From Candidatus Zixiibacteriota bacterium (GTDB taxonomy: Bacteria; Zixibacteria; MSB-5A5; SM1-73): a stretch of 26,853 nt of DNA. Below are positions 2,757-24,518 of this stretch, piece after piece. The notes beneath the pieces are model-generated. The model saw only the letters and a list, made by a program, of their open reading frames with translations. It had not been told where the DNA came from and did no database searches. Position numbers and translations under genes: made by a program. Numbering within the stretch: the stretch's first letter is position 1; each line of letters starts with the position of its first letter. The stretch is from the NCBI GenBank assembly GCA_023127875.1, contig JAGMFA010000009.1, positions 1 to 26,853 of the forward strand. The letters are read 5' to 3'.

Positions 2757-2812
2757 TTGACATTCCGTAGAATAATGACGACTTTATTAATTGAGATTGA
2801 GATTCAGTCTCA
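2757..2812 (+). promoter_or_regulatory. fur promoter region with Fur-type box
   Basis: TGAGATTCAGTCTCA at 2798-2812 is a 7-1-7 inverted repeat with arms TGAGA and TCTCA. It is preceded by another TGAGATT at 2792, giving the stacked hexamers usual in Fur boxes. A consensus TTGACA lies at 2757-2762, although no convincing -10 is placed at the right distance. The fur start is 15 bases downstream of the box, which suggests autoregulation. The same motif recurs after the gene. Confidence 0.7.
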
Positions 2813-2827
2813 TTTGAGGAATAAAAT

Positions 2828-3253
2828 ATGATACATCCTATACAAGTTTTTGCCGAATACTTAAACTTAAAAAATCTCAAATTAACCAAAGAGAGAAAAG
2901 CTGTCCTGCATGAGATGTTTCTTCACCGGGGACATCTGGAGGCAGAAGATATTTTACATAGCTTGAGAAGGAAGAAAAAGGGTGCTTCCCGGGCAACTGT
3001 TTATCGAACTTTAGAGCTTCTGGTGGACAGTGAAATAGTGCGCAAGGTTGACTTGGGACACGGACATTCCCATTACGAGTTGGTTTTGGGACATGCTCAT
3101 CACGAGCATATGATCTGCCTCAAATGCGGAAAAGTGATCGAGTTTTCAGACAAAAAGATAGAGAGATTCTATAAGAAGCTGTGTGAACAAAACCAATTCA
3201 AGCCCACCTCTCACCATTTTCAGATCTTTGGATATTGCAAGGATTGCAAGTAA
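2828..3253 (+). CDS. fur: Fur-family metal-responsive repressor
   Basis: This is a 141-residue DNA-binding repressor of the Fur family. The N-terminal winged helix covers about 1-80 (ASRATVYRTLELLVDSEIV is the recognition-helix region). The metal-binding and dimerisation half contains HAHHEH at 89-94, C97 and C100 (CLKCG), and a second pair C137 and C140 (YCKDC) for the structural zinc. The start follows a GAGG site. Two near-identical palindromes flank the gene, one before its start and one just after its stop, as expected for autoregulation plus control of the next operon. Iron is the most likely cofactor because of the downstream receptor and Feo genes. PerR or Zur cannot be excluded from sequence alone; the HHEH motif fits Fur best. 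Confidence 0.92.
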   Translation: MIHPIQVFAEYLNLKNLKLTKERKAVLHEMFLHRGHLEAEDILHSLRRKKKGASRATVYRTLELLVDSEIVRKVDLGHGHSHYELVLGHAHHEHMICLKCGKVIEFSDKKIERFYKKLCEQNQFKPTSHHFQIFGYCKDCK

Positions 3254-3287
3254 TTTTTTTTGAAAGGTCTAATGAGAATGAGTCTCA
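3244..3287 (+). promoter_or_regulatory. Fur-controlled promoter of the uptake region
   Basis: TTGCAA at 3244-3249 and TCTAAT at 3268-3273 are 18 bases apart and form a plausible sigma-70 promoter. The palindrome TGAGAATGAGTCTCA at 3273-3287 begins on the last base of the -10 and covers the start point, so a bound repressor would block transcription. It shares the TGAGA-N5-TCTCA arms with the box before fur. It would control the small CxC gene and possibly the genes behind it. Confidence 0.7.
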
Positions 3288-3321
3288 ATATCAATTAATT
3301 AAACCAACACCGGAGGTGAGA

Positions 3322-3552
3322 ATGGACAAGAGAAGCAAAAACCTTGCTGCTGACAGACAATTACAGAGCAGTGTCAATCTATGTGAGTGTGGGGTGGTAC
3401 ATCTTAACTACTTCAATACTACTATTCGGTTTACCCCGAAAAATTTTCTCAACTTTGCTTTAATGGTAAATGAAGCTTATTACAGGTTGAAGAATACCCC
3501 ATCGGGGATGGTTGAGGATAATCAGACTGAAACTGAAGGGTCGAACCTCTAA
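3322..3552 (+). CDS. small CxC-motif protein, function unknown
   Basis: I do not recognise the family. The ATG at 3322 has an excellent GGAGGTGAG site seven bases or so upstream and gives 76 residues; the open frame continues upstream into the fur stop, but that extension has no ribosome site. The core NLCECGVVHLNYFNTTIRF (C21, C23, H27) followed by FTPKNFLNFALMVNEAYYRL looks like a compact fold that could bind a metal through CxC-x3-H. The tail is polar and acidic. No signal peptide or membrane segment is visible, so it should be cytoplasmic. It is the first gene behind the Fur box at 3273, which argues for an iron-starvation role, for example as a small metal-handling or regulatory protein. 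That role is inference. Confidence 0.75.
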   Translation: MDKRSKNLAADRQLQSSVNLCECGVVHLNYFNTTIRFTPKNFLNFALMVNEAYYRLKNTPSGMVEDNQTETEGSNL

Positions 3553-3702
3553 AAGAGAAATTTGACGGAATGACAGGTATCTTCTCTCACAGAAACAGCA
3601 AACCAAAGTCATGGCGTTAGAGAAAAATGAAAAAGGCACAGACCTGTCCTTCTGAATAAAGTTTTTAACAAGATGATTTACAAAAAAGGAGGAACATATA
3701 CT

Positions 3703-4428
3703 ATGTCAGTGTTGAGAAATAAAATTCTTAGACTGGGGAGTTTGACATTATTTCTTTTCATCTGGACCATTACTGCTTTTGCAGGGGTGAAGTGGTCCCA
3801 GAATTTTTACTCTGAGGTTGAGCCCATAAAAATCAAGGACCCTATGGCAGTTGTGGCGGGGTCAACAAAGCCGGGGGAGAATGTCTTTGAGATCGGGATA
3901 GACGATGTGGGGATGTATACGGGGCACATCTGCCCCTGTGTGGCTGGTGGCTATAAGCTTACCGAATTAGCACTTAAGAATCTTTATGGGACTCAAATTC
4001 CCGAGCGGGGGAAGATAAGAGTTGTGGCTAATGCTTCATCTGAGCCGCTTGAGGTGGTCTCCTACATTACAGGTGTCAGGATATTTTATGGAGCGGAAGA
4101 GGACAAAAGTGATCTTGTGGTAGATAAAAACCTCAATGGAGAAAAAGGTGATGTCATAATGATCTTTCAGCGGGAAGATACGAACAAAGCTGTTAAGGTA
4201 ACTTTCCATAAGCATCTGCTTTCATCTCCGGAAGAGAGAGGAAAATGCAAAATCTTAAAGAAAAAGATCATGGAGGGGAAGGCGACTCAAGAGGAGAAGG
4301 AGCATTTCTGGAAGACAAAACAAGGAAAGGTGAAGAAGATACTCCTGGATTCTCCTGAAGGTCTGTTCGAGGTTGAGGAGCTCAAATCCTTTATATTTCC
4401 TGGAACAAAGATGCGGGAGAAAAAATGA
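3703..4428 (+). CDS. secreted FmdE-like domain protein
   Basis: This is a 241-residue exported protein resembling the FmdE domain (PF02663, named from the formylmethanofuran dehydrogenase operon). The start at 3703 follows AAGGAGG and opens with a signal peptide (hydrophobic 11-26, cleavage near TAFA). The FmdE hallmark is GHICPCVAGGYKLTELAL at 74-91, with H75, C77 and C79 as likely metal or cofactor ligands. A lysine-rich helical section follows about residue 175. Canonical FmdE proteins are cytoplasmic; here the signal peptide places the domain in the periplasm. It lies 150 bases after the small CxC gene and 113 before the TonB receptor, so a role in metal or tetrapyrrole handling is reasonable, though unproven. 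Activity as a formylmethanofuran dehydrogenase subunit is not suggested by the context. Confidence 0.8.
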   Translation: MSVLRNKILRLGSLTLFLFIWTITAFAGVKWSQNFYSEVEPIKIKDPMAVVAGSTKPGENVFEIGIDDVGMYTGHICPCVAGGYKLTELALKNLYGTQIPERGKIRVVANASSEPLEVVSYITGVRIFYGAEEDKSDLVVDKNLNGEKGDVIMIFQREDTNKAVKVTFHKHLLSSPEERGKCKILKKKIMEGKATQEEKEHFWKTKQGKVKKILLDSPEGLFEVEELKSFIFPGTKMREKK

Positions 4429-4541
4429 AGACGGAACAAATGAGATCGAAGGATTGAAATTCTAAAGAACAGGAGAATAATGGAGCAGTGAATTTGTTAC
4501 AGTCTGAAATTTTAAAATTAGTAAAGGAAGGAGTAAAAAAG

Positions 4542-6926
4542 ATGAAAAAGATATATGTAGCAATCGTGCTGTTGGGGATTTTAAGCCTTTCATTACCCCA
4601 AACGGCAATCTCAGGAGGTTTCGGCAGAATCGAGGGAAGGGTGGTAGATAAAGAAACTGGTGAACCACTTCCCGGGGTTAGCATTATTATCAAAAAAACC
4701 ACCTTAGGAACAGCCGTGGGTGAGGATGGGAGATACTTCTTGACCAAAGTTCCCTCTGGAAAGCACCAGGTGGTGGCAACGGTAATGGGATATAAGTCTG
4801 AAATAAAAGAAGTTAAAATTTCTGCTGGCAAAACCTATACTCTCAATTTTGAGTTGGAGGGAAGCCCGATTGAGTTAGGAGGCGTGGTGGTCACCGGCAC
4901 CCGAACCCCCAGATACTTGAAGGACGTCCCCTTACGCACTGAGGTTATCACTAGCAAGCATATCGAAGAGAGGGAGGCAACGAATCTATACGAGGCCGTG
5001 GAGGGAATGCCCGGGATAAGGGTGGAACAGCAATGCTCCTTTTGTAATTTTTCCATTATCAGGATGCAGGGGCTGGAAAGTGGTCACACCCAGGTGCTTA
5101 TTGATGGTCAACCCATCTTCTCAGGCCTGGCAGGAGTGTATGGATTACAGCAGGTTCCTACAGCCAACATAGATAGGATAGAAGTGGTTAAAGGTGCAGG
5201 TTCTGCTCTCTATGGCAGTTCTGCTATCGCCGGAGTGATTAACGTCATAACCAAGAAACCAACAGCCAGACCATCAGTGGGGGCAAGGGTCAGCTTTGGA
5301 ACGCACAATACCAATAACTACACCCTCTCTGCCTCCAGAAGGTTGGAGAATATGGATGTGATGGTGACCGCACAGAAAAACACTGGTGATGAAATTGATG
5401 AGAACGATGATGGCCTTACCGATCGGGTTAAAACTGATAATCTCTCTTTGGGAGTGAGATTAAACTCGTATGATCTTTTGGGAAATGACCAGCTTACCTT
5501 CACTGGCAGAGCCTTAAATGAGTTCCGCCAGGGTGGTGAGTTGACTACCTGGGAGAATCCCTTTGCCGCAAGTGCAGAACACATTAAAACCACCCGCTAC
5601 GAGGCAGGAATTGGTTACAAGAGGAGATTTTCGATTGGAAACCAGATCAACCTTGATTTCGCTTATGCTAATCATCACCGCAATGCCACCAATGATTCCT
5701 TTCTTGGTGATTATGAGGAGATCAATGGAGAGGTTCCCCCAGAAGATGAAATGCAACCTTACCTGGCTGACGAAAACCTATATGTAATGGACTTGAATTA
5801 TTCCCATCCCCTCGGAGCAATGCATAATCTGTTAGCCGGAGTTCAATATTCCCACAATGAGTTAGATGAAACAGGTAGGTATGTAATTGTGGATGAGGAT
5901 GACCCCAATTATGGTGGCACCTATACATCTGAAAGCGAAAAATACGCCGACGACGTGGGGATTTATCTTCAGGACGAATTTTCTATAACAGACGCTCTGG
6001 AGCTGGTGTTGGGAGCAAGGTATGATATTCACCATTCAAAAGATGATTTCGGCGGCTCAGGTAAGGTTGCCCCTAAGAAGAGTATTAAGCTTGAATACGA
6101 CGAAGAAGCCTTTAGTCCCAGATTGGCAATAATGTATGAGGCCTCTGCTGAATTGACCTTACGAGGCAGTGTGGGAACTGGTTTCAGAGTCCCTTACGGT
6201 TTTAGTGAGGATCTACATCTTTGCAGTGGGTCTCCTCGGGTTAACAAACCAGCGGGCTTGAAGCCTGAGAAATCTATCAGTGTGAATCTGGGAGCAGACT
6301 ACTCGGCCAACAGATATACCCTTAATGTCAATTTCTTCCGCACCAACCTGAAAGATAAGATCGGGTTCACAGATGCTGATGAAGAATCCAAGAGACTGGG
6401 TTACACTTATGAATGGGACAACATAGGTGATGCTTATACACAAGGAATAGAACTGGGCTCCAGCATACTTCTGATAAAAGACGTTGCTCTCGACCTCGAT
6501 TTAGCTTATACTGATGCCCAATATGAGAACAGGCGAGAGGATTGGGTGGAAAGCCACCCAGAGTTCGCAGATGAAAGCAAATACATCTCTCGGGTTCCGC
6601 AGATCACCGGAGGAGTCAAGTTAGCCTATAAGCCGGGAAGCTGGAATCTGATCTTGGACACTGATTATACCGGCAGGATGTATATAGACTATTGTAAGGA
6701 AGAGGATATAGAGGACCCCGAAAGCAAGATCGTGCATACTCCTGATTTCTGGGTTGTGAATACCAAGGTATCCAGAAACTTTAACAATGGGATCACCTTA
6801 TTTGCAGGCGCCAAAAATATATTCGACTATGTCCAGAAGGAGAAACATCCTGATGATGCCGCCTTTATGTATGCGCCCTTTACTGGTCGCACTATCTATG
6901 GTGGAGTGGAAGTAGATTTCAGGTAA
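4542..6926 (+). CDS. TonB-dependent outer-membrane receptor
   Basis: This is a 794-residue outer-membrane transporter powered by TonB/ExbBD (not in this window). The ATG at 4542 follows a GGAAGGAG site and a clear signal peptide (MKKIYVAIVLLGILSLSL). Domains in order are a carboxypeptidase-regulatory-like beta-sandwich (about 28-108), a plug (about 118-235, with GVVVTGTRTP, IDRIEVVKGAGSALYGSSA and GVINVITKKP), and a 22-strand-type barrel to the end. The plug carries C165 and C168 (QCSFCNF), a CxxC feature I associate with haem/siderophore-type receptors in Bacteroidetes. The likely cargo is an iron chelate, haem or a corrinoid, judged by the adjacent fur, feo and chelatase genes. A 127-base gap without a Fur box separates it from feoA, so they may be one transcript. 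Confidence 0.93.
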   Translation: MKKIYVAIVLLGILSLSLPQTAISGGFGRIEGRVVDKETGEPLPGVSIIIKKTTLGTAVGEDGRYFLTKVPSGKHQVVATVMGYKSEIKEVKISAGKTYTLNFELEGSPIELGGVVVTGTRTPRYLKDVPLRTEVITSKHIEEREATNLYEAVEGMPGIRVEQQCSFCNFSIIRMQGLESGHTQVLIDGQPIFSGLAGVYGLQQVPTANIDRIEVVKGAGSALYGSSAIAGVINVITKKPTARPSVGARVSFGTHNTNNYTLSASRRLENMDVMVTAQKNTGDEIDENDDGLTDRVKTDNLSLGVRLNSYDLLGNDQLTFTGRALNEFRQGGELTTWENPFAASAEHIKTTRYEAGIGYKRRFSIGNQINLDFAYANHHRNATNDSFLGDYEEINGEVPPEDEMQPYLADENLYVMDLNYSHPLGAMHNLLAGVQYSHNELDETGRYVIVDEDDPNYGGTYTSESEKYADDVGIYLQDEFSITDALELVLGARYDIHHSKDDFGGSGKVAPKKSIKLEYDEEAFSPRLAIMYEASAELTLRGSVGTGFRVPYGFSEDLHLCSGSPRVNKPAGLKPEKSISVNLGADYSANRYTLNVNFFRTNLKDKIGFTDADEESKRLGYTYEWDNIGDAYTQGIELGSSILLIKDVALDLDLAYTDAQYENRREDWVESHPEFADESKYISRVPQITGGVKLAYKPGSWNLILDTDYTGRMYIDYCKEEDIEDPESKIVHTPDFWVVNTKVSRNFNNGITLFAGAKNIFDYVQKEKHPDDAAFMYAPFTGRTIYGGVEVDFR

Positions 6927-7053
6927 AAGAAATAATGTGTCTTGCGGCTAAAGAGCTTGGCAAAAAGATTAGTTGTCGATGGCAATTGAATAAAACAATA
7001 CACCGTATCTTGCTAAAGACCGGATAACCTGTTTTTCAGATGACCAAAAGAAA

Positions 7054-7290
7054 ATGGAAAATATAGACTTAACCCAATTAGAAGAAGGAGAGACCGGGGT
7101 GGTGGTGCACATTCACGGCGGATACGGTTTGGTCCGACGTTTAGAATCTTTGGGGATAAGAGTGGGCAAGAAGGTGACCAAAGTGAGTGCTCAGTTTATG
7201 CGGGGTCCTGTTACCGTTAGAATAGGGAATTCTCATGTCGCCGTCGGGTTTGGCATGGCAAAAAAGATCCTGGTGGAGATAAAAAAATGA
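7054..7290 (+). CDS. feoA: FeoA-domain protein
   Basis: This is a 78-residue cytoplasmic SH3-like protein that assists the ferrous-iron transporter FeoB. The family pattern is complete: LEEGETGVVVHI, then GLVRRLESLGIRVGKKVTKV, and the closing strand VTVRIGNSHVAVGFGMAKKI. Length is standard for a free-standing FeoA. The ribosome site is weak (AAAAGAAA). Its stop overlaps the start of the methyltransferase gene by four bases (ATGA), so those two are translationally coupled. FeoB is usually the next gene, but here it lies two genes and a repeat cluster further on. Confidence 0.93.
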   Translation: MENIDLTQLEEGETGVVVHIHGGYGLVRRLESLGIRVGKKVTKVSAQFMRGPVTVRIGNSHVAVGFGMAKKILVEIKK

Positions 7291-7907
7291 AGGATGAACA
7301 TTCCACATATGTTCTTCATTTCTTCAAAAAATGGGCTCCCTTCTACGATGTGGTTGATTTATTTATTCGGGGAATCAGGGAAAGGGTTTTTCATTTTACT
7401 GATCCGGAAAAAGAAGCAAAGATTTTGGACGTTTGTACCGGCACCGGCAAACAGGCTTTCGCCTTCGGCAAAAGAGGTTTTGAGGTCATTGGAATTGACC
7501 TTTCTGAAGATATGCTGAGGGTGGCAGCGAGGAAAAATCGATATGAGAATGTGAGGTTTGAAATAGGTGACGCAAAAGATCTGCCATACAGAGAGAGTCA
7601 TTTTGATATTTCCTGTATCTCTTTTGGTTTGCACGAGATGCCCCAGCCTCTCATAAAAAAGGTTCTTGGGGAAATGGTTCGGGTTACTAAATCACAAGGG
7701 AAGATCATAATAGTTGACTATGCTTCCCCCAAAGGAAAGATCAGAAATTTCTTGTTTTATCATTTTGTCCGGCTTTATGAAAGCAAATACTTCCCAGAGT
7801 TTATAAAAGCTGATCTGTCGGGTGTAATCGATGGCATCGGGCTCAAGCTCAGGGGATTCTGTGAGTGGGCGTTTGGATGTGTGAAGATTTGGAAATATGA
7901 GAAGTAG
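7287..7907 (+). CDS. class I SAM-dependent methyltransferase
   Basis: This is a 206-residue UbiE-like methyltransferase. Motif I is ILDVCTGTGKQAFAFG at 46-61, the acidic residue ending strand 2 is D71 in EVIGIDLSEDML, and DAKDLPYRESHFDISCISFGLHEM carries motifs II and III in the mid-region. No signal peptide is seen, so it works in the cytoplasm. The substrate is unknown; quinone, tetrapyrrole or small-molecule methylation are possible. It is coupled to feoA by an ATGA overlap and lies 51 bases before an exported chelatase, so a tetrapyrrole-linked role is attractive. The domain is too general to support that by itself. Confidence 0.88.
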   Translation: MKDEHSTYVLHFFKKWAPFYDVVDLFIRGIRERVFHFTDPEKEAKILDVCTGTGKQAFAFGKRGFEVIGIDLSEDMLRVAARKNRYENVRFEIGDAKDLPYRESHFDISCISFGLHEMPQPLIKKVLGEMVRVTKSQGKIIIVDYASPKGKIRNFLFYHFVRLYESKYFPEFIKADLSGVIDGIGLKLRGFCEWAFGCVKIWKYEK

Positions 7908-7958
7908 GTTGAATTAAGATTTTAACTATTGGAAAACAAAGGTAGGGAAAATCGAGCT

Positions 7959-8873
7959 ATGAAAAAATTAACATTCATCTTACTGCTGGCAATCATTATC
8001 GGTCCATTTTCTCCAGGATCAATTTGTGCCCAGGAGAGTTTGGGTCTGCTCATTGTAGCCCACGGTTCCCCTATGCCTGAATGGAACTCACCTGTTCTTG
8101 AACTTGAAGAAGAAGTGAAAAAAAGGATGTCTGAAAGGGGCAATAACCCCTTCAGTGAAATTCGAGTCGCTTTGATGGAATTTAATGAGCCGTCGATTAA
8201 TACTGCAATCAAAGGCTTCGAGAATGCCGGCGTTGATAAAGTTTACGCCATACCATTGTTTGTTGCTCCATCCGGACATTCTATGTATGATGTTCCAACT
8301 ATTTTAGGGCTGTACAGCGACAAAGAAATGATTGAGAGAATTAAAGAAGAAGGGATAACTATAATTGATACCAAAATGAAAATTACAATAGGACCATCGC
8401 TAAATAAGGGTGACATTTTAAAAGAGGTCATGTTAGATAGAGTAAAAGAGTTATCAACGGCACCCGATTCAGAAGGGGTGGTTCTTCTTGCCCACGGAGA
8501 TGCTCGTTTTGAGCCAATTTGGGATTCTATGTGCAGGGAGATTGGTTCTTATATCTGTGCCAAAACTGGCACCAATTACTTCGATTATACTTTTGTGGAG
8601 ATAGGTCAATCCTTTATCTCGGAAGGTATGCCGGTTATTCTGAAAACAGCAGACAAATGTAAGAAGACAATAGTGGTTGGACTATACCTCGTAATGAGTG
8701 TCGAAGATATGGCTCAAAATTCCATCTTACATATTGGTGAGATAAAAATGGAGAGTAAAAAAATGTTTGCTGGTAATAATATCTATTTTTCAAAACTTGG
8801 CCTTTTACCCGATAAACGGATATCAGAATGGATAGTTGATAGGGCTATGGAATGGGTAGAAAGATTGAAATGA
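7959..8873 (+). CDS. exported CbiX/CbiK-like chelatase
   Basis: This is a 304-residue protein of the sirohydrochlorin/ferrochelatase fold. Cytoplasmic members insert Co, Fe or Ni into tetrapyrroles. Two chelatase halves are visible, one opening LLIVAHGSP (H35) and the other VVLLAHGDARF (H179). The first half ends in the typical IPLFVAPSGHSMYDVPTILG block (H107). The ATG at 7959 begins a signal peptide (MKKLTFILLLAIIIG, cleavage near ICAQ), so the enzyme should be periplasmic. This recalls the periplasmic CbiK of Desulfovibrio vulgaris, where a chelatase homologue sits with transport genes. With a TonB receptor and FeoA upstream and FeoB downstream, it may act on an imported metallo-tetrapyrrole, either loading or removing metal. 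The direction is not decidable from sequence. A TTG at 7929 is an in-frame but less likely start. Confidence 0.85.
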   Translation: MKKLTFILLLAIIIGPFSPGSICAQESLGLLIVAHGSPMPEWNSPVLELEEEVKKRMSERGNNPFSEIRVALMEFNEPSINTAIKGFENAGVDKVYAIPLFVAPSGHSMYDVPTILGLYSDKEMIERIKEEGITIIDTKMKITIGPSLNKGDILKEVMLDRVKELSTAPDSEGVVLLAHGDARFEPIWDSMCREIGSYICAKTGTNYFDYTFVEIGQSFISEGMPVILKTADKCKKTIVVGLYLVMSVEDMAQNSILHIGEIKMESKKMFAGNNIYFSKLGLLPDKRISEWIVDRAMEWVERLK

Positions 8874-8980
8874 TTTCAACTTCGATCAACAGCAGATTTT
8901 GTCGGTTTTTTTCTCATTTCGTAAGTGTCAGCAGGATTCATGGGATTTATAATGTCAGAAATTAATACAAAAGCAAAAAA

Positions 8981-9216
8981 TGCGTATGCATCTTCGATAA
9001 GTTTACGTACCCCTCACCCTGACCCTGCGAAGCATTCATACGAATCTCCCACAAGGGGAGACGGTTCGACTTCGCTCCCTTCGACCTTGCTCAGGGACAG
9101 TGAGCGAAGTCGAACTGTCACCGTCCTGAGCCTGTCGAAGGAGGGAACTTCATAAATTTCCCCCTCCCTGGATGGGAGGGGGCCAGGGGGAGGGTAATGC
9201 GTATGCATTCATACGA
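8981..9216. repeat. cluster of palindromic repeats between chelatase and feoB
   Basis: The 391-base gap 8874-9264 holds no credible gene but many repeats. 9012-9049 matches 17840-17877 at all but two of 38 positions. A 14-bp perfect stem pairs 9064-9077 with 9102-9115 (arm GTTCGACTTCGCTC). 9123-9141 reappears inverted at 11302-11320 with one mismatch. CGTATG-CATT-CATACG at 9200-9215 recurs at 20871. The cluster separates feoB from the genes in front of it and may act as a transcript boundary. Confidence 0.8.
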
Positions 9217-9264
9217 ATTGTTTCAATTTATTCAATTCGTTTGTCATAGATGGAGGAGCTACTG

Positions 9265-10968
9265 GTGCGCAAAATCCTTTTGATGGGCAATCCCAATGTG
9301 GGCAAAAGTGTAATCTTCTCTCGACTCACCGGAGTGGATGTGATCGCCTCCAACTATCCCGGAACTACGGTGGAGTTCACCCGAGGTCGCATGAAATTGG
9401 AAGATGAGTTGGTGGAGATCATAGACGTGCCCGGAACTTATGACCTTAACCCTAACTCTCCGGCAGAAGAGGTAGCTGTCCGGATGGGAAAACAGGGGGA
9501 TGTGATCATCGATGTGGTGGATGCCACCAATCTGGAAAGAAACTTAAACCTCACCCTCCAGTTGCTCAAGGATGGAAAGCCGGTGGTGGTGGCTTTAAAT
9601 CTCTGGGATGAAACCCGTCATATTGGCATTTCCATTGATGTGGAAAAGCTTCAAAAGATTCTGGGCGTGCCGGTTGTCCCCACCTGCGCTATAACCGGAG
9701 AAGGAATCAAAGAATTGGTCTCGGAGCTTCCCCATGCCAGGGCAAATACTTTCCAGTATGAGGAGGAAAAAAGATGGGAGAAGGTGGGAGAGATCATCAG
9801 CCAGGTGCAAAGGATAACCCACCGTCATCATACCTTCTTAGAAAGGATGGAGGATCTTTCCATAAGACCGGTAACCGGTTTGCCACTGGCGGTAATAACC
9901 TTATTTGTCATCTTCCAAATCATTCGGTTTATTGGTGAGGGGCTAATCGGACTCATATTTGAACCTGTATTTGAGAAGCTGTGGGCACCTTTGATGATGC
10001 AGGTGTCAAGTCTTTTAGGTGGAGGCTTCATACATGACGTCCTCATTGGAAAGCTGATGGAAGGCCAGATAGACTTTGTGGAATCGTTAGGTCTTTTGAC
10101 CACTGGTCTTTTTGTTCCCATCGCCATGGTTTTACCTTATGTTTTTTCCTTCTATTTAGTTTTGAGTTTCTTGGAGGATTCAGGCTATCTTCCTCGTCTG
10201 GCGGTGTTGGTGGATAACGTGATGCACCGATTTGGCCTGCACGGACTGGCTATCATTCCCATGATGTTAGGCTTGGGTTGCAATGTGCCTGGAGCAATGG
10301 CCACCCGGGTTCTGGAGACAAAAAGAGAGAGGTTCATTGCCGCCACCCTGATGGCAATTGCGGTTCCCTGCATGGCGCAGACCGCCATGGTGGCTGGGTT
10401 GATAGGAAGATATGGAGCCAAAGGATTCGGGCTTGTCTTTGGAACCCTTTTCGTGGTATGGGTGGTGCTGGGAATTCTGCTGAACCGATTTTCAAAGGGT
10501 GAAAGTCCGGAGATTTTCGTCGAAATCCCCCCTTACCGGATGCCCTACTGGGGGGCATTGCTCAAGAAGCTATGGATGCGAATCCGAGGATTCTTGAGAG
10601 AGGCAATTCCTTTTGTCCTTTTTGGGGTATTAGTCACCAACATTCTGTATTCTTTGGGAATAATCCAATTTTTAGGACGGCTAACTTCTCCTGTAATCAC
10701 CGGAGTCTTGGGTCTGCCCCAGGATGCGGTGGGCGCCTTGATCATCGGCTTTCTGCGAAAAGACGTGGCAGTGGGCATGCTTCTTCCTTTGGGTCTGGAT
10801 CTTTCTCAACTGGTGGTCGCCAGCGTGGTTTTAACCATGTACTTCCCCTGTGTGGCTACCTTCGCCGTTTTAATAAAAGAGCTGGGGACCAAGGACATGA
10901 TAAAATCTGCCGCCATCATGATTTCCTCCGCTCTGATAGTCGGAGGTCTGCTAAATCTTATCCTTTAA
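9265..10968 (+). CDS. feoB: ferrous iron transporter FeoB, compact form
   Basis: FeoB imports Fe2+ across the inner membrane. The N-terminal G domain is complete: GNPNVGKS (G1), YPGTTVE (G2), DVPG (G3), NLWD (G4) and CAITGEG (G5). The transmembrane part begins near residue 195 and contains both conserved cysteine 'gate' motifs (GLGCNVPGA and AVPCMAQ) and a late MYFPCVAT. At about 567 residues it is shorter than the 773-residue E. coli protein, but compact FeoBs of this size are common. The GTG at 9265 is my start, because GGAGGAG lies six bases before it and the protein then begins VRKILLMGNPNVGKS as is usual; the ATG at 9250 would place that ribosome site inside the gene. Some 390 bases of repeats precede it, so it may have a separate promoter. 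Confidence 0.95.
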   Translation: MRKILLMGNPNVGKSVIFSRLTGVDVIASNYPGTTVEFTRGRMKLEDELVEIIDVPGTYDLNPNSPAEEVAVRMGKQGDVIIDVVDATNLERNLNLTLQLLKDGKPVVVALNLWDETRHIGISIDVEKLQKILGVPVVPTCAITGEGIKELVSELPHARANTFQYEEEKRWEKVGEIISQVQRITHRHHTFLERMEDLSIRPVTGLPLAVITLFVIFQIIRFIGEGLIGLIFEPVFEKLWAPLMMQVSSLLGGGFIHDVLIGKLMEGQIDFVESLGLLTTGLFVPIAMVLPYVFSFYLVLSFLEDSGYLPRLAVLVDNVMHRFGLHGLAIIPMMLGLGCNVPGAMATRVLETKRERFIAATLMAIAVPCMAQTAMVAGLIGRYGAKGFGLVFGTLFVVWVVLGILLNRFSKGESPEIFVEIPPYRMPYWGALLKKLWMRIRGFLREAIPFVLFGVLVTNILYSLGIIQFLGRLTSPVITGVLGLPQDAVGALIIGFLRKDVAVGMLLPLGLDLSQLVVASVVLTMYFPCVATFAVLIKELGTKDMIKSAAIMISSALIVGGLLNLIL

Positions 10969-23433: not shown

Positions 23434-23443
23434 CTATAAAAAA

Positions 23444-23517
23444 TGCGCCTTGAGGGAATCGAACCCCCGACCCACTGATTAAGAGTCAGTTGCTCTACCT
23501 AGCTGAGCTAAAGGCGC
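23444..23517 (-). tRNA. tRNA-Lys (anticodon CTT)
   Basis: The minus strand folds as a complete cloverleaf of 74 bases. The acceptor stem GCGCCTT/AAGGCGC is perfect, U8-A9 precede the D stem GCTC, the anticodon stem ACTGA/TCAGT holds loop CTCTTAA with anticodon CTT, and the T arm has GGTTCGATTCC. The discriminator is A and CCA is not encoded. It has its own consensus promoter and terminator. Confidence 0.97.
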
Positions 23518-23525
23518 ATGGTGTA

Positions 23526-23554: not shown

Positions 23555-23582
23555 GAAATTTTTTGAAACGGGGTTGTTTAAA

Positions 23583-24518
23583 ATGAGTTCAATTTCGCCT
23601 GATTCCTTAAAGATGCTGATTGACTCTGTCGATCACTCAAGCATGAGAAAATATCTGGAGAGTTTCTATTTCGACTGCAAGGTGAAAAATCTCACCCCTA
23701 AGACCATGGATGGATATGGGGAGAGGCTGGAGAATTTCCATCGATTTATTCAATCAAAGGGCGTCCCCTTTGAGAAGGTGGACAGACATCTAATTCAGTC
23801 CTACATCCTCTCAATGAAGGACCGGGTCTCTGATTATACCATAAATGGAAGAATCCGGGTTGTTAGGCTTTTCTTTAATTATCTACAGAGGGAAGGCCTT
23901 TTAAATAATGGAAATCCTATCAGCGGCATAAAGCTGATAAGAGTTGAAAAGAAATTCCCCAGGATAGTTACCATAGATGAAATGGAGAAACTTTTGGCTA
24001 TTCCTAATAAGAGGACCTTTGTTGGATATCGGAATTATATTATGCTCCTTCTTTTTTGGGATGCCATGATTCGCCTCAGTGAAATGCTAAGCCTCAAGCT
24101 TTCGGATATAGACTTGAAATCCGGGATGATTAAAGTATATGGGAAAGGACGGAAGGAGAGATGTATTCCTCTTGGAGCGAGGAGCATTAAGGCACTTCAC
24201 TATTTCTTGATGAAGTTCAGATCTAAATTCCCCGGAGAGTACCTGATATGTAAAGCAGATGGTTCTCCATTTAGTTTAAGAGCTGTAGAACAAATTCTTG
24301 AAAGGATAGGGAACAAAGCTGGAATTAAGGTTACTCCTCATCTGCTGAGGCATTCAGCCGGGACATTCTGGATTAAATCTGGAGGGTCATCGAGCATCCT
24401 ACAAAAGCTTTTAGGACACACCACACAGAGCACAACCCAACTATATGTTCATCTGGCAGGAGCTGATGTTAAGGAATGGCACAATAGATTTTCTCCTGCG
24501 GATAGATTGAAGGGTTAA
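23583..24518 (+). CDS. tyrosine recombinase (XerC/D-like integrase)
   Basis: This is a 311-residue site-specific recombinase. The N-terminal SAM-like core-binding domain covers about 20-120 (LTPKTMDGYGERL, INGRIRVVRLFFNYL). The catalytic domain has R164 (IRLSEMLSL), the K188 region (YGKGRKERCIPLG), H253 and R256 (HLLRHSAG), H279 (LLGHT) and nucleophile Y288 (TTQLYVHL). All six catalytic positions are present, so it should be active. One oddity is AMIRLSE where ATGLRISE is usual. I prefer ATG 23583; a TTG at 23574 is also in frame. It begins 65 bases from tRNA-Lys, on the 5' side of that gene, whereas integrases normally use the tRNA 3' end. It may belong to a small island running right, or be a chromosomal Xer-like protein. 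Confidence 0.92.
   Translation: MSSISPDSLKMLIDSVDHSSMRKYLESFYFDCKVKNLTPKTMDGYGERLENFHRFIQSKGVPFEKVDRHLIQSYILSMKDRVSDYTINGRIRVVRLFFNYLQREGLLNNGNPISGIKLIRVEKKFPRIVTIDEMEKLLAIPNKRTFVGYRNYIMLLLFWDAMIRLSEMLSLKLSDIDLKSGMIKVYGKGRKERCIPLGARSIKALHYFLMKFRSKFPGEYLICKADGSPFSLRAVEQILERIGNKAGIKVTPHLLRHSAGTFWIKSGGSSSILQKLLGHTTQSTTQLYVHLAGADVKEWHNRFSPADRLKG

Follow-up and report, generated by a model that had tools for sequence, protein, structure and literature searches.

Can a small chelatase that is sent out of the cytoplasm be the enzyme with which a bacterium takes iron from an imported tetrapyrrole? The question is raised by a cluster of eight genes, all on the + strand, at about 2.8-11.0 kb of a 26,853-nucleotide stretch of DNA from Candidatus Zixiibacteriota (contig JAGMFA010000009.1), which as a whole we call the window. 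The cluster encodes, in this order, a Fur-family regulator, a small CxC protein, an exported FmdE-domain protein, a TonB-dependent receptor, FeoA, a methyltransferase, an exported chelatase and FeoB. A sequence-only reading had listed fur with two operator boxes and these seven further genes on one strand, a list borne out by our Pfam and NCBIfam profile scans, which covered part of the window genes and from which the gene names are taken, and by a search for the box pattern. It had also proposed that a metallo-tetrapyrrole is imported, loses its iron in the periplasm and supplies Fe2+ to Feo. We favour, with a probability of roughly 60%, a reading in which the cluster is a Fur-controlled system that imports a metallo-tetrapyrrole, most likely haem, and takes the iron from it, as a class II equivalent of the HmuS route. 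What leads us to haem import and demetallation is the context of the chelatase across phyla, together with export signals, iron-type regulators and the haemophore and redox partners of its relatives. The proposed succession of steps has gained from all of these, while its substrate and the direction of the reaction are still matters of inference.

The exported chelatase

The chelatase gene (7959, the likely start, to 8873, +) encodes a protein of 304 amino acids that belongs to the class II superfamily (CbiX/SirB/CbiK/HemH), as judged by its match to PF01903 (48.0 bits, cut-off 22), and that has the two-domain class II fold, with SirB as its best fold match. In an alignment of 55 chelatases, His35 and His107 are found in all 55 and Glu74 in 54, and all three residues are kept in each of the 20 loci from the genome draws described below (L076-L095; chelatase loci carry the prefix L throughout). 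This His/Glu/His set lies in the N-terminal half of the protein, and its correspondence to a metal site comes from an alignment to CfbA together with PMC11301274 (this and the other papers are cited for the passages that were available). One further histidine, His179 in the second half, is likewise invariant in the 55; since tyrosine replaces it in 19 of the 20 draw loci, a three-histidine active site is of limited use as a hallmark of the lineage. Its equivalence to Arg134 of SirB was read from the internal repeat, without superposition, and plays no part in our argument.

A hydrophobic N-terminal segment is present in 61 of 65 chelatases, that of the window included, and the four without it are either truncated by a contig end or were matched by the motif at another place. 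The enzyme falls outside the CbiK family: it scores 16.0 bits against PF06180, whose cut-off is 26.2, and its site is N-terminal, whereas the active-site residues of CbiK lie in the C-terminal half (PMC4063343). Weak profile matches of the chelatase to FetB and CbiK are shifted by one domain; the sole sequence match between the chelatase profile and FetB (E 0.0088) places stretch 76-112 on positions 205-241 of FetB, in its C-terminal half.

Recurrence beside iron and haem uptake genes

Relatives of this chelatase occur in Bacteroidia, Zixibacteria, Eisenbacteria, Aminicenantes, Planctomycetota, Elusimicrobiota and other groups. A single scan of genome contigs with an alignment of 29 sequences gave 68 loci, in 64 of which a chelatase open reading frame was picked (L044, L047, L059 and L064, in which none was, are left out of the counts), and the window brings the set to 65. 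Two genomes hold two of the 68 loci each (L020 and L032; L026 and L034), and the short loci L069-L075, of which L069-L074 repeat earlier ones, were left unannotated. The neighbour families, recognised by Pfam or by likeness to window genes, are TonB/SusC receptors, DtxR, HmuY, ChaN, M16 peptidase, SusD, FeoA, FeoB, Fur and FmdE. Within four genes of the chelatase, TonB/SusC receptors are present in 30 of the 64 loci, Fur or DtxR in 10, FeoA or FeoB in 8, HmuY in 7, FmdE in 5 and ChaN in 3, and 42 loci have at least one listed partner. Counted by genes, partners make up 75 of the 344 that lie at most three genes from the chelatase and 16 of the 463 at greater distance, window included (Fisher p 2e-16), a p value that is uncorrected for kinship and partly circular, as the partner profiles were built from clusters at the same loci. 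Another 20 neighbours, mostly from loci without partners, were scanned, and most proved unrelated or unnamed.

The partners change from lineage to lineage. On a tree of 63 of the 65 chelatases (rows shorter than 240 amino acids were dropped), there are 13 changes for TonB, five each for HmuY, FmdE, Feo and DtxR, four for ChaN and two for Fur. The receptor, haemophore, FmdE, Feo and redox partners are exchanged from one lineage to the next, and the whole window set is no conserved unit. The recurring element is an exported chelatase accompanied by genes for the uptake of iron or haem; the exact eight-gene set does not recur, although parts of it do. The window chelatase pairs on this tree with that of L001, followed by that of L002 (Zixibacteria), and in both of these loci fur, feoA, the chelatase gene and feoB stand in the same order as in the window, between an EamA-type gene and homologues of the window's downstream genes. 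Such a shared order is more than chance would give. The extra genes of the window are those for the CxC protein, FmdE and the TonB receptor, between fur and feoA, and the methyltransferase gene before the chelatase gene; either the receptor and FmdE joined a fur-feoA-chelatase-feoB core, or other members may have lost both.

Eight Prevotella-type loci (L046, L048, L049, L051, L053, L055, L058 and L060) have the chelatase near a conserved SusC-SusD-DUF4929-M16 peptidase set, with ChaN in seven of the eight; this set looks like a different island for the uptake of haem or haem peptides.

A redox gene behind the chelatase in Bacteroidia

To avoid picking loci by their context, and the circularity of the near-far comparison, an even draw of 385 Bacteroidia genomes was made. 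It holds a relative of the chelatase in 20 genomes and CobN in 6 (E 1e-20 for both), and HmuY in 53 (E 1e-10); chelatase and HmuY occur together in 7 (Fisher p 0.012, which becomes 0.031 when the seed genome G021 is left out). Nineteen of the 20 relatives had not been seen before and were fetched with their flanks, and these chelatases are 28-32% identical to that of the window.

In 19 of these 19 loci (L076-L094, from related genomes and not 19 independent events), the gene directly 3' of the chelatase encodes a membrane redox protein, with gaps of -20 to +14 bp; this partner was found within the draw itself and was not predicted beforehand. Two unrelated families occupy the same place, FMN_bind with Fer4_5 in 7 loci and a PepSY_TM-like protein in 12, which argues for a redox step in these cousins and fits removal of the metal somewhat better, without proving it. 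PepSY-domain genes are strongly iron-regulated in receptor loci of Bacteroides thetaiotaomicron (PMC10434189), and this fits an iron role for the PepSY family.

A TonB receptor on the same strand lies within four genes of the chelatase in 14 of the 19 loci, and HmuY is present in 13, recognised by Pfam on the protein in L077, L083, L085, L086, L087, L088, L091 and L094, by its place in L079, L081, L084 and L089, and by a profile built for this analysis in L090. All four upstream proteins scanned have a type IX sorting domain, with a weak HmuY match as well in L077, L089 and L094. Across the 20 draw-set loci, L095 included, partner profiles match 23 of the 157 genes that lie at most four genes from the chelatase, against 5 of the 118 at greater distance (p 0.005). 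We also note a hemerythrin-domain match, barely above the cut-off, between chelatase and receptor (L079:9207-9815).

Iron-type regulation

The gene of the Fur-family regulator (2828-3253, +; PF01475, 112.7 bits) has one Fur-type operator just 5' of it (TGAGATTCAGTCTCA, 2798-2812, +) and another between it and the CxC gene (TGAGAATGAGTCTCA, 3273-3287, +). With up to one mismatch allowed, the Fur-type palindrome TGAGANTNANTCTCA matches the 26.9-kb window at these two places, both times exactly, and shuffled sequences give an expectation of 0.08. The fur-proximal box is also present at fur in the nearest relatives, with one mismatch in L001 and none in L002, where it falls within the 5' part of the fur open reading frame in its longest form. 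The regulator stays below every NCBIfam equivalog cut-off among the matches listed, and its sequence does not settle whether its specificity is that of Fur, PerR or Zur.

Loci with a DtxR-type regulator point in the same direction as regards iron-type control. The DtxR-type palindrome TTAGGNNNNCCTAA, again with up to one mismatch, has 10 matches in 8 of the 11 such loci, against about 3.4 in plain shuffles. Six of the ten, in four loci (L008, L009, L012 and L019), are found no more than 60 bp 5' of dtxR or tonB; the matches in L010, L014 and L038 precede tonB by 650-750 bp, and the one in L005 follows dtxR; at the same tolerance, the palindrome is absent from L018, L042 and L067. A promoter scan gave no more matches than shuffled sequences.

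Genomes that carry the chelatase

What can be said at the level of whole genomes (HemC, HmuS and others) comes from the relatives only and not from the window's own genome. Among 23 chelatase genomes, 22 are without CobN, 22 without HemH over the cut-off and 19 without HemC, counts to be read with the caution that many genomes are metagenome-assembled and possibly incomplete. Apart from the gene of the exported protein, 21 of the 23 have no CbiX-family gene (G013 carries another exported copy, and in G017 there is a second, weak match). With HemC and HemH lacking in most of these genomes and the chelatase as the sole CbiX-family gene, a role in biosynthesis is argued against, and wherever a genome is truly without HemC, the substrate must come from outside. 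The overlap of chelatase and CobN was 0 in two draws, with about 0.3 (Bacteroidia draw) and about 0.6 expected.

The other genes of the cluster

The receptor gene (4542, the likely start, to 6926, +; PF00593 and PF07715) encodes a TonB-dependent receptor with a CxxC motif in its plug domain. Its best NCBIfam subfamily is the haem/haemoglobin family TIGR01785, with 166.2 bits, under the cut-off of 316.85, and its matches to solved structures are mostly at the level of the plug (CirA, BtuB, PhuR and others) and indicate no substrate. A CxxC plug is present in 11 of 25 receptors of at least 600 amino acids within four genes of a chelatase, namely that of the window (CSFCNFSIIRMQGL) and those of L008, L009, L010, L012, L014, L015, L019, L031, L032 and L038. 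These receptors form a distinct group beside the chelatase, and the motif may be a metal site or a disulfide.

The FmdE gene (3703, the likely start, to 4428, +) encodes a protein with a signal-like N-terminus that has both the domain (PF02663, 43.8 bits, cut-off 22.9) and the fold of its family; a comparison of its sequence with solved structures gave nothing useful. An exported FmdE beside a TonB receptor or chelatase is found in 5 of 64 other loci. Among the closest FmdE relatives (alignment A3, P0128-P0138), a second group without a signal-like N-terminus has an insertion that is missing from the exported ones. The CxC protein (3322-3552, +; 76 amino acids in the best reading of its open reading frame) has no Pfam match and eight homologues besides itself. 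It was not placed in DUF6686 (PF20391), with no family found at E 0.01; Pfam does recognise DUF6686 proteins at the chelatase loci L025, L077, L079 and L082, that of L025 is 29% identical to the CxC protein, and the latter looks like a short relative of this family. Small proteins with two cysteines thus recur near FmdE or the TonB receptor of chelatase loci, as DUF6686 members in the four relatives and as a short look-alike in the window.

Both Feo proteins are assigned to their families, FeoA (7054-7290, +) by PF04023 (74.1 bits) and FeoB (9250-10968, +) by TIGR00437 (376.3 bits, cut-off 315.65), with its FeoB_N, Gate and FeoB_C domains. Gaps between the genes of the cluster measure 51 to about 150 bp, with two exceptions: feoA and the gene of the UbiE-like S-adenosylmethionine-dependent methyltransferase (7287-7907, +; PF13649 and PF01209) overlap by 4 bases, and 376 bp separate the chelatase gene from feoB. 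This long gap holds an imperfect inverted repeat (9057-9122; 24-nt arms, 88% complementary) that is possibly a small mobile repeat. The methyltransferase stays below the cut-offs of 25 of 55 NCBIfam families, those among the matches listed. As a conserved partner it is unsupported, with methyltransferases at 5 of 344 near genes and 7 of 463 far ones; those of the ICMT type (3 of 344 near, 0 of 463 far) are too few, and at L033 a methyltransferase lies beside the chelatase. Near the end of the window, a tRNA-Lys gene (23443-23518) adjoins a phage-type integrase gene (23574-24518), and this spot is likely an integration site.

Proposed mechanism

In the mechanism that we propose, the TonB receptor would bring an iron tetrapyrrole into the periplasm, where the exported class II chelatase would bind the ring between its two domains. 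The His35/Glu74/His107 site, for which the conservation of the residues is the observation, would then run the ferrochelatase reaction backwards and free Fe2+. Before its release the iron may be reduced, in the Bacteroidia cousins by the membrane redox protein encoded directly behind the chelatase, and the freed Fe2+ would be imported by FeoAB, the function of this family being known. We can only guess at the parts of FmdE, which might hold or pass on the metal, and of the methyltransferase, which might modify the left-over ring.

More tentatively, and with the odds somewhat against it, one could extend this to a previously unrecognised haem-iron system, in which a secreted SirB-type class II chelatase runs in reverse with electrons from an interchangeable PepSY_TM or FMN/4Fe-4S partner, fed by swappable receptors and haemophores and with Feo as the exit. 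It would offer an anaerobic route of demetallation where the CobN-type HmuS is missing, and environmental lineages like that of the window may use porphyrins other than haem, with FmdE as a metal carrier in the periplasm.

Points against it and alternative explanations

Several observations weigh against the removal of iron from haem by this cluster. The direction of the reaction is unreadable from sequence, so that we infer both it and the substrate of the chelatase. The window genes scanned with Pfam include no HmuY, ChaN or recognised redox partner, and the receptor is below every substrate-level NCBIfam cut-off among the matches listed. In L001 and L002, the CxC, FmdE, TonB and methyltransferase genes are missing from this place, and without a receptor and FmdE at the site, the chelatase of these two loci might contribute to Fe2+ uptake by some other means. 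The sequence-only reading had called for a search for its gene order in other genomes; fur-feoA-chelatase-feoB is kept in these two loci, while FmdE together with FeoA or FeoB within four genes occurs in 0 of 64 annotated loci. Furthermore, 22 of the 64 have no listed partner within four genes, many of their contigs being short and several having unrelated scanned neighbours.

The redox gene has its limits as well. The two redox profiles match in only 1 of the first 65 loci, L006, where the order fur-feoA-feoB-chelatase is followed directly by a protein with 4Fe-4S domains, and L095, from a family-level draw, has HmuY-TonB-chelatase with a transporter behind it instead of a redox gene. The standing of the redox partner as a general part of the system is therefore limited, and the link is shown for the Bacteroidia cousins, not for the window's branch. 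As to the genomes, the set of 23 was hand-picked, and a partner stands near the chelatase in 22; HemC is present in 5 of 7 chelatase genomes from the phylum of G002 (87 of 132 genomes overall), and the absence of HemC was thus rejected as a general rule. The absence of CobN from 22 of the 23 was likewise rejected as proof of a replacement, because CobN is rare anyway (6 of 385 Bacteroidia). Finally, disruption of the cbiK-type gene of Bacteroides fragilis was reported to leave the use of haem iron unaffected (PMC6460266), and IhtB of Porphyromonas gingivalis is not under PgFur regulation (PMC10913741).

Among the alternatives, the one that survives best, unlikely as we hold it to be, is that the chelatase works forwards, inserting Fe2+ into scavenged periplasmic porphyrin to provide haem for exported cytochromes in the absence of HemH, with Feo as a general iron supply. 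Class II chelatases are known as metal inserters, the lack of HemH over the cut-off in 22 of 23 genomes makes a substitute ferrochelatase conceivable, and the partner data give no direction; a reductase might equally serve insertion, by holding the iron in its ferrous state. However, the iron-type repressors, their boxes and FeoAB fit a need for iron better than the assembly of haem, and HmuY-family haemophores are known to bring haem that is already metallated.

It is also improbable, in our judgement, that another substrate is handled, be it a corrinoid, a nickel or cobalt tetrapyrrole or a porphyrin metallophore, with its metal freed or loaded by the chelatase. Class II enzymes do handle Co, Ni and Fe (PMC11301274), and the failure of the window receptor to reach the haem cut-offs would be understandable; loci with a CxxC-plug receptor have FmdE nearby in 4 of 11 cases and HmuY in only 1, and directly after the L025 chelatase, in the slot of FeoB in the window and its kin, there is a ZIP-family metal transporter (L025:4453-5256). 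Against this, the haem-binding families HmuY and ChaN recur at chelatase loci, and L031 joins a CxxC receptor, FmdE and the chelatase with a second TonB receptor and HmuY.

That we are dealing with a relocated sirohydrochlorin chelatase of siroheme or cobalamin synthesis, placed near iron genes by chance, is hardly credible: its best NCBIfam matches are sirohydrochlorin nickelochelatase models (below the cut-off, with 82 of 120 bits), SirB is the best fold match and HemC is present in 4 of the 23 genomes and 5 further ones of one phylum, but an export signal in 61 of 65 chelatases and 19 genomes without HemC speak against it, and the placement in a cobalamin operon that the sequence-only reading had named as fatal to its own proposal finds no echo, with no cobalamin-pathway gene among the neighbour families scanned, which represent a part of all neighbours.

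Comparison with known systems

For B. fragilis it was concluded that haem loses its iron in the periplasm and that FeoAB is needed (PMC6460266). The HmuS route of Bacteroidota uses a membrane-bound, NADH-dependent enzyme that anaerobically releases Fe2+ from haem after import by TonB and HmuY, with uptake through FeoB, and direct evidence for this de-chelatase was given in 2025 (PMC12583661). Removal of iron from haem by the exported chelatase would resemble the hmu operon in that the enzyme is found with a TonB receptor and HmuY, as in some of its relatives. It differs in the enzyme itself, as had been claimed from the sequence: HmuS is a CobN-type, class I protein of about 1,450 amino acids with no reported similarity to CbiK or HemH (PMC13227078), whereas the window-type enzyme is of class II and about 300 amino acids long, and the window genes scanned with Pfam include no CobN match. 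In structure, the head and neck domains of HmuS distantly resemble class II chelatases (PMC12583661). A further difference is that in the Bacteroidia cousins the electrons may come from the product of a separate PepSY_TM or FMN/4Fe-4S gene. HmuY was not found among the window genes scanned.

The chelatase has a second precedent in the CbiK-like IhtB of P. gingivalis, which was suggested in 2000 to take iron from haem (cited in PMC6460266; also PMC10913741). IhtB/FetB is likewise an exported chelatase proposed to strip haem outside the cytoplasm, so that the general idea is an older one; the passages covered contain no proof of IhtB/FetB activity. IhtB/FetB is nevertheless of the CbiK type, whereas the window lineage has its His/Glu/His set in the N-terminal half, and Iht has an ABC transporter where the window has Feo. 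The periplasmic cobaltochelatase CbiKP of Desulfovibrio vulgaris, whose physiological role was reportedly unsettled in the work of Romao in 2011, belongs by name to the CbiK lineage, unlike the window chelatase. SirB of Bacillus, CbiX-L and archaeal CfbA serve biosynthesis and have two histidines at the site (the CfbA dimer has four); in contrast, the window lineage looks exported and has the extra His179, or tyrosine in its place. The window FmdE shares domain and fold with the FmdE family and differs in being exported and in lying near a TonB receptor or chelatase.

In the open-licence literature searched, which misses most subscription papers, no paper joins FmdE with TonB, and none describes an exported SirB/CbiX-type lineage or connects it with HmuY and with PepSY_TM or FMN/4Fe-4S proteins. 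What looks new is therefore the lineage with an N-terminal site and its linkage to redox proteins, HmuY and Feo. Because iron release from haem without oxygen is only partly solved, a conserved arrangement of chelatase, redox protein, receptor and haemophore outside the CobN family represents a testable second solution. It could explain some HmuY operons that are without HmuS, and exported proteins annotated as sirohydrochlorin cobaltochelatase may be iron scavengers rather than enzymes of vitamin B12 synthesis.

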